DNA of 64,000 nt from Mycolicibacterium porcinum (GTDB lineage Bacteria; Actinomycetota; Actinomycetes; Mycobacteriales; Mycobacteriaceae). The stretch spans positions 296,084 through 360,083 of the forward strand of contig MVIG01000005.1 in the NCBI GenBank assembly GCA_002086835.1, given 5' to 3'. Positions 36,328 through 64,000 of this stretch are shown here, piece after piece. Position numbers and translations under genes: made by a program. The stretch's first letter is position 1, and every line of letters begins with the position of its first letter. A model generated the notes under the pieces. The model was given only the letters and a program-made list of their open reading frames with translations, was not told the origin of the DNA and made no database searches.

Positions 36328-36651
36328 TCAGAAGTTGTTGCAGGTGTCGAAAACGGTTTGCAACAACCCCAGGTACGGCTGGTTGGCCGGTTGAGCGGCG
36401 ATCCCCTCGGCCATGCGTTGCCGTTGGTCGTGTCCCGCCCCCAGGAACTGGCGCAACACATCCTGGACCGCCGGCGACGCACCGGCCATGGGGCTCTGCG
36501 CATTCAGCGCACCCATCACCTGCGGATAACTACAGGTGGTGTTCACAGCCGAATCCAGCCTGGGGTCTGCGGAAGCGACACCCGCGCCAGCGGCCAACAA
36601 CACCGCCAGACCACCTACTGCGACAGCCAGTTTGACCGATGATTGCTTCAT
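36328..36651 (-). CDS. Secreted hemophore-related protein (MHB-type)
   Basis: A 107-aa protein with a signal peptide (MKQSSVKLAVAVGGLAVLLAAGAGVASA, cleavage before DP). The mature part of about 79 aa has two Cys, TCSYPQV and DTCNNF, placed at both ends for a disulfide, and the internal ALNAQSP and LRQFLGAGHDQRQRM blocks typical of Rv0203/Rv1174c-type haem-binding proteins. A strong GGAGGAGG site precedes the ATG. It lies 136 bp downstream of the second mmpL gene on the same strand. Rv0203 hands haem to MmpL3/MmpL11, so the neighbourhood is suggestive, not proven. Confidence 0.75.
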   Translation of the reverse strand: MKQSSVKLAVAVGGLAVLLAAGAGVASADPRLDSAVNTTCSYPQVMGALNAQSPMAGASPAVQDVLRQFLGAGHDQRQRMAEGIAAQPANQPYLGLLQTVFDTCNNF

Positions 36652-36787
36652 GACGTGTAGACCTCCTCCCCCGATTTTCGGACTCTAGCTCGCGCAGCCC
36701 GATCACTTCGGAGTTTTCGCCATTTGCTGCGCCCAACTCGGGCCAGGTAGTTGCCCAAGAAAATGGTTTGCCGACGAGTCGCGAGAG

Positions 36788-63500: not shown

Positions 63501-64000
63501 GCCCCACGAACAGCAGCCGGATCCGCGGTACCGGTGATATAGCCGACCAACCGCTTATCCCCCGGCCGGTCCTCACGGACGATCACCACCGCCTGCGTAA
63601 CACCATCCAGATCAGCCAGCGCGGTTTGGATCTCACCCAACTCGATGCGGTAGCCCCGGATCTTGACCTGCTCATCAGCACGACCCAGATACTGCAACTG
63701 CCCATCAGCACCCCACCGCACCACATCCCCGGTCGAATACATCCGAGCACCCGCCGCCCCAAACGGACACGCCACAAACCGCGACGCCGTCAAACCCCCA
63801 CGACGGGCATACCCATACGCCAACCCCCGGCCCGCGATATACAACTCACCCACCACACCAGCCGGCACTTGCCGCAACCACCGGTCCAGGACGAACACCG
63901 CCGCCCCCGGAACCGGGGAGCCGATCGGCACCACACCAGAACCAGCCGTCAAAGGTGCGCTGATCGTGGCATACACCGTGGCCTCGGTCGGACCATAGGC
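54590..64000 (-). CDS. Non-ribosomal peptide synthetase, C-terminal part with TE (5' partial)
   Basis: More than 3130 codons; the frame runs to the right edge, so the start is outside. Order (coordinates approximate, running right to left): partial A with A5 at the edge, PCP (Ser codon 63254-63256, GGDS); C 63110-61760 (HHIAGDG); A 61680-58935 holding a methyltransferase of about 450 aa between A8 (60490) and A10 (58950) (SAM motif LEIGVGSGLLLAQV, then VVLNSVIQYFPS); PCP (GGHS, about 58795); C 58620-57250 (HHIAADG); A 57190-55710; PCP (GGDS, about 55585); TE 55450-54600 (GWSFGG, THYEM). No epimerase is seen. A-domain codes read against GrsA numbering are DYWSMAGVY and DFWTLGAVY plus Lys; substrates not assigned. 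It would release an N-methylated peptide. Confidence 0.95.
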   Translation of the reverse strand, partial: AYGPTEATVYATISAPLTAGSGVVPIGSPVPGAAVFVLDRWLRQVPAGVVGELYIAGRGLAYGYARRGGLTASRFVACPFGAAGARMYSTGDVVRWGADGQLQYLGRADEQVKIRGYRIELGEIQTALADLDGVTQAVVIVREDRPGDKRLVGYITGTADPAAVRGALGQRLPGYMVPAAIVVLDAIPLTVNGKLDRRALPGPEYTDTGESYRAPSTTVEEILAGIYAQVLGLQRVGVDDSFFDLGGDSLSAMRLIASINTSLDADIAVRTLFDAPTVAQLAPRISVATGGLPALTVQERPAVIPLSYAQNRMWFLNRFDSGAATYNMPTAYRITGVLDAGALGAALVDVVGRHESLRTLFPAVEGVPRQVVVSADQADFGWQVVDAAGWSAERLRDAIGAIVGYEFDLSVEIPLRAVLFRLGAEKHVLVAVVHHIAGDGWSIGPLVRDLGVAYASRCAGQTPGWTPLPVQYVDYTLWQREHLGDLADQNSRISEQLAYWEQTLAGLPERLELPTDRPYPPVADHRGGTVIVDWPAELQQRVGRVAHEHNATSFMVVQAALAVLLSRLSASSDVAVGFPIAGRRDPALDELVGFFVNTLVLRVELDGDPTVDELLAQVRQRALAAYEHQDVPFEVLVERLNPVRSLAHEPVIQVIFAWQNLPGLDNDPATALSLGDVQAAPLEADTQTARMDLVLFLREHWTETGEPAGIWGSMEFRTDVFDTASIEVLIERLRRVLVAMTSEPGRRLSSVELLDDVEQVRLDEVGHRGVLARRVPESSIPGLFVGQAVRAPDAVAVCFDGRSLTYRELDEASNRLAHLLVGMGAGPGHCVGLLMSRSADAIVAILGVLKSGAAYLPIDPAHPDARVQFMLADAEPVAVLTTTDLLDRLAGCGVPVVRTDDPMIDSMPGTPVAPGPAADDVAHIIYTSGTTGVPKGVAVTHQNVTRLFDGLDVGVEMSAGQVWAACSSLAFDYSVWEIWGALLHGGRLVVVPESVTRAPQELQALLAAERVTVLSQTPSAVGMLSPEGLESVAALMVAAEPCPPQVVDRWAPGRVMINGYGPTETTVYATISAPLQAGTGAVPIGAPVPGAGLFVLDQWLREVPPGVVGELYVAGRGVGVGYVRRPGLTGSRFVACPFGMPGARMYRTGDRVSWGADGQLWYAGRADEQVKIRGYRIELGEIQSVLASHPRVSQAVVVAHASTPTMSQGEATTDKQLVAYVVLDPEMMLVREAARESELVDQWQGVYEGLYSGESFTTGLPAELGEDFGGWNSSYTGEPIPLSQMEEWRSSAVAGILALRPRRVLEIGVGSGLLLAQVAPKCVEYWATDFSPPTIQTLQTKVAGHPWSDRVRLQVQPADAPDGLPQGHFDVVVLNSVIQYFPSAGYLLDVLAVAMRSLAPGGALFIGDVRNLSLLRAFTTGVVCAGEHSGHDGEDTAAAVRGRVRRELLSEQELLVAPEFFTLLPEYLDDIAAVEVRLKDMRAVNELSGYRYEVVLRKAPIPVRSVAALPSEPWQRVGSLSKLAEYLRSEQMPEARICGVPHAGIWRDVELARGLDKAGDRERISELISGITESDAISPHDCLQLGRELGYAAAATWSSSDGLVDIIYTRAAEPSAEGTLPALSDLYLPGVALGSPAAYVNDPSAIERASELRRFAADKLPEYMVPAAIMLLDALPLTVNGKLDRRALPDPEFNSGVPYRAPRDRRERALVALFGEVLGVTRVGIDDGFFDLGGHSLSATRLVARIRAELNVDVSIRALFDAPTVAELAEWISAHAQTWAGAALTVRERPAVLPLSYAQQRLWFLDQLQGPSPVYNMPTAYRINGALDIEALEAALTDVVSRHESLRTVFTAVDGLPQQVVIPAEQATFSCQVVDARGWPEPRLREVVEAAVRYCFVLADEVPVRATLLRVGESEHVLVVVVHHIAADGWSIAPMVRDLGMAYACRSSGRAPDWSPLPVQYVDYTLWQREQLGDLSDANSPIAAQVAYWERALAGLPERLELPTDRPYPAVADYRGASVAVDWSIELQQRIGRLARTHDATSFMVLQGALAVLLSKLSSSSDVAVGFPIAGRRDPALDDLVGFFVNTLVLRVDLGGDPTFAELLSQIRRRSLAAYEHQDVPFEVLVERLNPIRSLTHHPLIQVMFAWQNFATRDSSGPVTESLLSDLQVTPLPADTQAARMDLAFSLEERWTGSGEPDGIVGSVEFRTDVFDADSIRALIERLERVVMALTTDASMRLSAVDVLAGDEHDRLDEIGNRTALTAAVAPVSVPRAFAEQVARAPKAVAVTTPRLSPRSSGTRSLTYQELDEASNRLAHFLKGMGVGPGQSVALLFNRCAEAIVAMMAVLKTGAAYLPMDPAHPEARIAFMLADAAPSAAITTAAHLDRLAGAGPPVIDIDDPRIDGYPNTALPAPEADDIAYLIYTSGTTGTPKGVGITHHNLTHLAASMPTGLPAEQIWTQCHSYAFDFSVWEIWAALLTGGRLVVVPEDVVNSPEIFHDVLVSEDVNVLTQTPSAAAALSPEGLGSTALLLGGEACPSDLVDRWATGHVVINAYGPTEATVYASMSAPLTTPEAAGPRVIPIGAPVPTSALFVLDQWLRPVPNGVVGELYVAGRGVACGYLGRSALTGSRFVACPFGGAGAPAIRMYRTGDLVCWDADGQLRYVGRADEQVKIRGYRIELGEIRTALADLDEVVQAAVIVREDHPGDKRLVGYVTESVAGAVDLDQARAKLADRLPVYMVPAAVMVVDALPLTSNGKLDTRALPAPEYKAGQYRAPETPAEELLAGIYAEVLGLERVSVEDSFFDLGGDSLLAMRVVAAINKATDVHLAVRAMFDAPSVRSLAQQLGSADSSAEVVPVDILRQAPGIPVVCIHDGFGLSWSYRGLGEYLDCPIVGINQTSTADQAGPISIHSLAVIYADRVEALHPEGPYKLLGWSFGGVVAHALAVELQRRGREVHSLVLLDAALRTNKLTTGADRLVAKNQALAEGLVLEYILQTNNIDVPTHRRPIDYQRAEQLIQQQGALGFALPPKPLLEFMVRSLNENQLRLLDHAPEVFDGDVAIFLAARHRNDDGGPGLRSRWRGLRNRRAARTHLDSWRPYVTGEIDAYSVDCTHYEMFTARSLSEYGGQLRLLLGG

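Follow-up and report, generated by a model that had tools for sequence, protein, structure and literature searches.

Which lipopeptide is made by a mycobacterial synthetase locus of which only one end lies on a single contig? The window analyzed here, a stretch of 64,000 nucleotides from Mycolicibacterium porcinum (assembly GCA_002086835.1, contig MVIG01000005.1), carries at 36788-64000 a block coding for two MmpL transporters, MmpS, a hydrolase, a fatty acyl-AMP ligase (FAAL), a Mas-like polyketide synthase (PKS), Gap, an ICMT-like methyltransferase and an N-methylating nonribosomal peptide synthetase (NRPS) that ends in a thioesterase (TE). A first-pass annotation of the window had listed the same genes as a candidate new lipopeptide cluster, and our open reading frame (ORF) and Pfam/NCBIfam scans recovered all of them. 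According to our analysis, the block is very probably one end of a fortuitine-type lipononapeptide locus, with the lipid-head and export genes and one tail synthetase, and would belong to a family of such clusters with alternative tail synthetases rather than being a new cluster. The assignment to fortuitine and the layout of one head with several tails are what we propose here.

Fortuitine is acyl-Val-MeLeu-Val-Val-MeLeu-Thr(Ac)-Thr(Ac)-Ala-Pro-OMe, an all-L peptide with a straight acyl chain. The 1965 paper on its structure is reportedly among the early examples of sequencing a peptide by mass spectrometry. The title of that work (Barber, Jolles, Vilkas, Lederer 1965) calls the compound an "acylnonapeptide methyl ester". 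Our literature search found no gene assignment for it, and Data S1 of PMC11978893, which lay outside that search, may list such loci as predictions.

The window NRPS (54590..64000, minus strand) is cut at its 5' end and reads (A)-T-C-A(NMT)-T-C-A-T-TE by profile and motif scan, with two condensation (C) domains, three adenylation (A) domains of which the first is cut, three thiolation (T) domains, one N-methyltransferase (NMT) in the middle A domain and the C-terminal TE. All parts lie on the minus strand. The cut A domain (63350..64000, approximate boundary) is of the AYGPTEATVYA type and Ala-like by motif. A first C domain (61721..63094; PF00668 at G000:C48:357804-359177) is followed by the A domain with the NMT inserted at about 59788-60085 and a T domain (58684..61640; Pfam AMP-binding, Methyltransf_12 and PP-binding), a second C domain (57251..58627; PF00668 at G000:C48:353334-354710), the last A and T domains (55440..57136, approximate boundaries; Pfam, motif and identity) and the TE (54643..55396; Pfam Thioesterase), to which NRPS/EntF thioesterases are the nearest PDB sequences. 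The NMT-bearing A domain has the code DYWSMAGVYK, taken as Val, and by identity it groups with modules 1, 3 and 4 described below. The last A domain, with the code DFWTLGAVYK by eye (printed as DFWTELAVYK by the script), is closest to the final module of M. peregrinum (84%), which makes the window tail M. peregrinum-like.

Position 64000 is the end of contig C48 (G000:C48, 360083 bases) and not an arbitrary cut. Further NRPS modules, which the first-pass annotation had proposed to reach by extending the sequence past this point, were found on the short contigs C43, C44, C45, C46 and C52 and at one end of C22. A number of contig ends lie within A domains, where assembly breaks are expected since A domains are near-identical between modules in relatives. 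C44 carries module 1 (cut), module 2 with an NMT, module 3 and one C domain; C43 carries module 4 (cut), module 5 with an NMT and the terminal C domain of a first synthetase, NRPS-1; the end of C22 carries MbtH and a starter C domain. We considered a frameshift in C43 and dropped it, as the frame ends like the NRPS-1 of relatives and the next one begins like their second synthetase, NRPS-2. On C46 (L066), an MbtH remnant (664-744, positions 3-29 of 53) stands at an NRPS-2 start and is possibly the trace of a duplication from the NRPS-1 start.

Relatives of the locus were sought with the Gap protein in 396 genomes of the genus (G numbers), window genome included, scoring at most five candidates in each; 23 of these genomes gave a match of at least 59% identity. 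A starter-C query (E up to 1e-130) on the other 22 Gap-positive genomes found a best match of 56-100% in each, while the remaining matches (at most 56%) belong to other NRPS frames; the top two matches in G165 were equal, both at 56%. With a longer starter-C query, the window genome gave 82% at the end of C22, the next match being 55% in its glycopeptidolipid (GPL) locus. Fifteen relative loci were read at 60-100 kb (G298, G327, G348, G296, G230, G272, G124, G238, G299, G251, G020, G339, G021, G119 and G279). A 30-kb piece of G128 (Mycobacterium sp. URHD0025) brought the number for gene-presence counts to 16, and G336, G280, G192, G176, G165 and G135 were covered by searches only. G021 is M. 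peregrinum strain 852002-51209. A scan of named organisms returned 11 loci, of which only that of Mycobacterium sp. URHD0025 was near (78%; others 36-51%). The ICMT-like protein was too unspecific as a genome query, with matches in 130 of 148 genomes. Ten genomes hold another NRPS frame of about 8,120-8,200 amino acids with a related starter C domain (46-54%; G348:C1:3117891, G296:C1:3194950, G298:C1:1235293, G230:C1:878222; also G251, G119, G339, G135, G279 and G280), with a Gap paralog nearby in at least four genomes; we read it as another lipopeptide locus.

In 12 of the 15 loci read, NRPS-1 (about 6,520-6,560 amino acids) has the order C-A-T-C-A(NMT)-T-C-A-T-C-A-T-C-A(NMT)-T-C, that is, five modules with N-methylation at 2 and 5 and a bare C domain at the end; it is broken in G299 and has six modules in G020 and four in G339. 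NRPS-2 has four modules, no first C domain and a TE at the end. The gene following NRPS-1, NRPS-2a (about 4,100 amino acids), begins with an A domain and reads Thr-Thr-Ala-X9, X9 being the residue of module 9, in 8 of the 15 loci (G327, G348, G296, G230, G272, G124, G238 and G299); its TE is present in seven, the frame of G238 stopping after the ninth A domain. We saw no epimerisation (E) domains in NRPS-1 or NRPS-2 by motif, C motifs occurring at elongation spacing only, which fits the all-L peptide of fortuitine. In G298, G272 and C43, an NMT region contains one extra HHxxxD.

The A-domain codes fall into repeated types: DYWSMAGVYK or DFWSMAGVYK in modules 1, 3 and 4, DAFLVGAIWK or close in 2 and 5, DYWSVGMVHK or DYWSIGMVHK in 6 and 7, DVWSVAAVYK in 8 and DVWNVAGYTK in 9. 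Five loci (G327, G348, G296, G124 and G230) show the complete pattern A-B(Me)-A-A-B(Me)-Thr-Thr-Ala-X, and in these the A domains of modules 1, 3 and 4 are 85-100% identical. Modules 2 and 5 are 79-95% identical in the same five (78-95% across all 12 loci), versus 45-48% for modules 1 and 2. Three further loci have the Thr-Thr-Ala tail, two with a different module 4 (G272 and G238) and one with the broken NRPS-1 (G299). The GPL synthetase of the window genome served to calibrate these codes: its second module, for Thr, has exactly DYWSVGMVHK, its first has DAWTVAAICK, which resembles what we take to be the Phe code, and its Ala modules 3 and 4 have DVWCVAAIYK (by eye) and DVWYVAAIYK. Over the whole A domain, modules 6 and 7 of G348 are 75% and 74% identical to the Thr module of its own GPL synthetase versus 57-58% to the other GPL modules, and module 8 is 76% identical to both Ala modules, 71% to Phe and 62% to Thr. 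A-domain identities support the Thr and Ala calls alike.

Modules and compound agree in the likeness of positions 1, 3 and 4, of 2 and 5 and of 6 and 7, in both N-methyl positions, in Ala at 8, in the number of nine modules and in TE release. The first-pass annotation had mentioned fortuitin as a possible neighbour and objected that the N-methyl residue did not plainly fit. The name holds and the objection falls: the window NRPS would be one alternative C-terminal synthetase, and the matching N-methylating modules are in NRPS-1, outside the window. We infer the residues other than Thr and Ala, the acyl type, esterification, export and the feeding of every NRPS-2 by NRPS-1.

The same annotation had named, as the other compound that the product might resemble, the lipopeptide of M. 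avium subsp. paratuberculosis, the lipopentapeptide L5P. Such a locus would make an acyl-Phe-MeVal-...-Ala-OMe like L5P or the lipotripeptide L3P, both methyl esters, and the window NRPS alone does have a penultimate MeVal, as in L3P. This resemblance does not survive the relatives, where five NRPS-1 modules precede NRPS-2 to give nine in all and the Phe code DAWTVAAICK appears in no readable NRPS-1 or NRPS-2 module, a few modules being without a readable code. For module 1, the relatives have a DYWSMAGVYK-like code or DIWGLGQMWK rather than the one for Phe in the GPL synthetase; module 1 of the window genome is seen only in part. We consider an L5P/L3P-like product extremely unlikely.

A GPL or a GL8P-like glycosylated lipopeptide, with glycosyltransferases elsewhere in the genome, would share the MmpS/MmpL/MmpL/Gap set known from GPL loci, and a GPL locus is indeed present in the window genome, on C7. 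The profile library used for the window detected there an NRPS ending in a reductase, three glycosyltransferases of the GT28 type and Gap, which makes this locus a positive control. Among the 13 ORFs scanned in the window (32226-63976), this library detected neither a glycosyltransferase nor a reductase; as the first-pass annotation had described, the last module ends in a TE, one module N-methylates and glycosyltransferases are missing among these ORFs. Nor was a glycosyltransferase found among the ORFs scanned in C46, G327 and G348, which are part of those listed. Between Gap and NRPS-2a, the scanned ORFs were HtpG (G348), WS/DGAT-like ORFs (G348 and G327) and, in G327 only, an ornithine cyclodeaminase-family protein, a KAS III-like protein and ORFs without match. 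The GPL NRPS of the window genome also has extra C-type motifs consistent with E domains, none of which occur in the TE-ended window NRPS, and the codes differ. A glycosylated product is very unlikely, and the locus remains, as first annotated, related to GPL loci and distinct from them. On these grounds (TE and not reductase, no glycosyltransferases found, no Phe module 1), the GPL and L5P readings were both rejected.

If the locus is of the fortuitine type, it should be carried by M. fortuitum. An in silico hsp65 digest of G348 (231/116/79; 145/123/58/52, smaller pieces omitted) agrees with what we take to be the M. fortuitum type 1 pattern. That pattern was not found in the text of PMC2323382. 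The class A beta-lactamase of G348 shares 260 of 262 residues with 2cc1, the M. fortuitum enzyme according to PMC3715408, and this match identifies G348 as M. fortuitum; the beta-lactamases of four other carriers are identical to that of G348 at 250-259 of 300 positions. The hsp65 digests of G230, G238 and G296 fit the pattern given for M. conceptionense, M. senegalense and M. farcinogenes in PMC4259318. By sequence, then, the producer species carries a fortuitine-type locus, G348 being one of the five with the full pattern.

Many relatives have more than one tail synthetase. Two NRPS-2 genes are present in 9 of the 15 loci (G327, G348, G296, G230, G272, G124, G238, G299 and G251), and one was found in the stretch read in G021, G119, G279, G020 and G339. 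G298 has one NRPS-2 frame with a 100-N gap, its start like the first NRPS-2 (C43) and its end like that of the window, which is probably a collapsed pair; the gap lies within a repetitive region of a single-contig genome, where collapsed repeats are likely. The second tail reads Thr-Thr-Thr-X9 in G327, G296 and G299, Thr-Ala-Thr-Val in G348, Val-Ala-X(NMT)-X9 in G230, G272 and G238, and Thr-Ala-X-X in G124. In the window genome, three NRPS-2 starts (C43, C45 and C46) and three TE ends (C45, C46 and the window) point to three NRPS-2 genes, next to a single close NRPS-1 start. All 23 NRPS-2 starts compared, of both 2a and 2b types, share the N-terminal segment VTADLSRRLSSMDFLDEDEHAELFGWGNR or one close to it; it resembles the final part of a C-A linker, and the C-termini of NRPS-1 are alike (14 compared). 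In a tree of TE domains, that of the window clusters with those of G298 and URHD0025 (99/100), and C45 with C46 (100/95); M. fortuitum-type 2a TE domains lie elsewhere, and G124_2b and G348_2b form long branches.

The simplest reading is that a single NRPS-1 serves all NRPS-2. Whether two or three NRPS-2 with a common N-terminal docking segment compete for it, so that a strain makes a family of lipononapeptides with the same head and different tetrapeptide ends, we regard as evenly balanced. The window NRPS might instead be independent, making a separate short peptide from its own A domain and sharing only lipid and export genes with an NRPS-1/NRPS-2a pair: an A-T start can be an initiation module, the window TE is on a distinct branch, and the start of the window NRPS lies outside its contig. 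We find this unlikely, since the starts on C45 and C46 carry the VTADLSRRLSSMDFLDEDEHAELFGWGNR-like segment along with the 23 others, the bare terminal C domain of NRPS-1 needs a downstream A domain, and each genome has one close NRPS-1 start (two equal matches in G165).

The lipid part of the block consists of the FAAL, for chain activation (44081..45826, minus strand; Pfam AMP-binding; NCBIfam NF004509, 983.8 bits, cut-off 775), and the Mas/Pks2-like PKS (46229..52567, plus strand; KS-AT-DH-ER-KR-ACP by Pfam; NCBIfam NF041183, 3716 bits, cut-off 2400). A methyl-branched chain of the Mas/Pks2 type, unlike the straight chain of fortuitine, would be suggested by this above-cut-off score and by MAS entries being the nearest PDB sequences. 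In its AT motif, VDVAFHSP, the PKS has Phe where the full-length MAS entries 9d2z and 9d2y and the AT entry 7agp have Ser. The otherwise nearly identical 7agq and 7agr carry Phe at that position, presumably as variants made to change extender choice. Of the 17 loci scanned, the window among them, 16 have Phe, no row being obtained for G251. This residue predicts that the PKS uses malonyl-CoA and makes a straight acyl chain, and we hold a branched product to be improbable.

For the C-terminus, the ICMT/PEMT-like membrane methyltransferase (ORF 53595..54578, plus strand; Pfam PEMT and ICMT) is the candidate carboxyl methyltransferase. The part conserved in G298 begins at residue 94 (about 53874), and its PDB matches include 4a2n, an ICMT (E 7.8e-6), and 8xku (E 5.7e-6). 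The gene is present in 12 of the 16 relative loci scanned and was not found in G020, G339, G021 and G119. WS/DGAT-like ORFs occur in the locus of G327, G348 and G230 and on C46; of six scanned (G327, G348 and C46), one is above and two are below the Pfam cut-off, and three have no Pfam match. As a guess, they may be candidates for threonine acetylation. In G327, an ornithine cyclodeaminase-family gene lies between two WS/DGAT-like ORFs inside the cluster (L053:3800-4930) and could supply proline for module 9. The Hsp90 gene htpG stands beside the cluster in seven of nine genomes, on C46 (L066 1688-3616) and in G348, G230, G296, G272, G251 and G021, and elsewhere in G298. At E 1e-60, it gave one match per genome in eight of the nine and none in G327. 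A cluster-dedicated Hsp90 is weakened by its being a single match per genome, away from the cluster in G298 and without match in G327.

Several observations weigh against the fortuitine assignment. Val and Leu are assigned from the known compound and not independently predicted, and the code of module 9 differs from the textbook Pro code. The codes were read by motif, at positions given by motif rules, with misreads in some rows (module 4 of G230 was printed as ELASMAGVYK but reads out as the 1/3/4 type). Only 5 of 15 loci have the full nine-code pattern, module 4 is of another type in G272 and G238 (69-70%), and so is module 1 in M. peregrinum and G119 (68-70%). In the stretches read of M. 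peregrinum and G119, a TE is present but no ICMT-like gene. No Thr-Thr-Ala tail was seen among the contigs of the window genome, where tails are cut by contig ends and the pieces are Thr (C43), Ala-type, Ala and X9 (C45), DVWSVGSVCK (C52) and Ala-MeVal-X (window). The TE domains of C45 and C46 stand on a branch of their own, away from those of M. fortuitum NRPS-2a, and NF041183 names the PKS a phthioceranic-acid synthase of Pks2 type, that is, a sulfolipid branched-acid synthase.

In the pathway that we propose, the FAAL would activate a long fatty acid and the PKS would extend it, fully reduced, with malonyl-CoA to a straight chain. NRPS-1 would join the acyl chain to residue 1 through its starter C domain, which lies at the end of C22, and would add Val-MeLeu-Val-Val-MeLeu. 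Its terminal C domain would hand the acyl-pentapeptide to an NRPS-2 starting with an A domain; this would add four residues, and its TE would free a linear acid. The ICMT-like enzyme may form the C-terminal methyl ester, and MmpS, MmpL and Gap may export the lipopeptide. The window NRPS would be one of three NRPS-2 genes, giving a tail ending Ala-MeVal-X.

The export genes are MmpL b (ORF 36788..40222, minus strand; Pfam MMPL), MmpL a (39658..42540, minus; Pfam MMPL), MmpS (42537..43046, minus; Pfam Mycobact_memb) and the Gap/Sap-like integral membrane protein (52850..53818, plus; Pfam SfLAP). MmpL b is homologous to the neighbouring MmpL only from about residue 194, which places its real start near 39.65 kb; it is 84-92% identical in 11 of 16 relative loci, and MmpL a 80-98% in those where it was found. 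The alpha/beta hydrolase ORF (43260..44357, minus; Pfam Abhydrolase_1) overlaps the FAAL, and several relatives match only its C-terminal 260-280 residues; its real start is probably at about 44.06 kb. At the left edge, an IclR-family regulator (35399..36316, plus; Pfam HTH_IclR) is a conserved neighbour, 75-93% identical in all 13 relative loci where it was found. The left flank (32226-36316) comprises a sulfotransferase, an SDR, a protein without Pfam match and this regulator; this flank is present in most of the loci whose stretch reaches that far.

If correct, this assignment would provide genes for fortuitine and candidate enzymes for its methyl ester and straight acyl chain, as well as a natural system for studying chain transfer from one NRPS to several partners. 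If one head does serve several tails, M. fortuitum would make a second lipopeptide ending Thr-Ala-Thr-Val beside fortuitine, and the window strain would make tails ending Ala-MeVal-X and Ala-Ala-X9. Such products would be strain-specific surface lipids of the M. fortuitum group and possible serological markers, as which GL8P and L5P have reportedly been tested.

Among known systems, fortuitine is the closest: it fits a line of nine modules that N-methylates residues 2 and 5, reads Thr-Thr-Ala at positions 6-8 and has a TE with a candidate carboxyl methyltransferase and no E domains seen. It is known as a compound; the window genome has other NRPS-2 tails, its own Thr-Thr-Ala tail not being seen. 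The PKS resembles Mas/Pks2 in its full KS-AT-DH-ER-KR-ACP order and high sequence similarity but has Phe, not Ser, in the AT motif, and probably uses malonyl-CoA for straight chains. With GPL loci (mps1/mps2, gap, mmpS4/mmpL4a/mmpL4b), the fortuitine-type locus shares the MmpS/MmpL/MmpL/Gap export set, MbtH and a large NRPS with related A domains; it differs in having no reductase release, no glycosyltransferases or E domains seen, other codes, and a Mas-like PKS with a FAAL. L5P and L3P of M. avium subsp. paratuberculosis are likewise acyl-peptides with N-methyl-Val, the L5P core being described in PMC8103206, but have five or three residues starting with D-Phe, against nine modules without a Phe code here. 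According to PMC11978893, the GL8P locus of M. abscessus (MAB_4689c-4705c) makes a rhamnosylated octapeptide with four epimerases, and a second GPL-like locus varies between species; its main text does not contain "fortuitum". We rejected a GL8P reading, as octapeptide synthetases with four epimerases and glycosylation genes were not found among the ORFs scanned in the window and in the loci of relatives. The fortuitine-type and GL8P loci are both second lipopeptide loci beside GPL with MmpL/MmpS, TE release and variation across species, but GL8P, as described there, is set apart by its octapeptide, its four epimerases, its rhamnose and its other residues.

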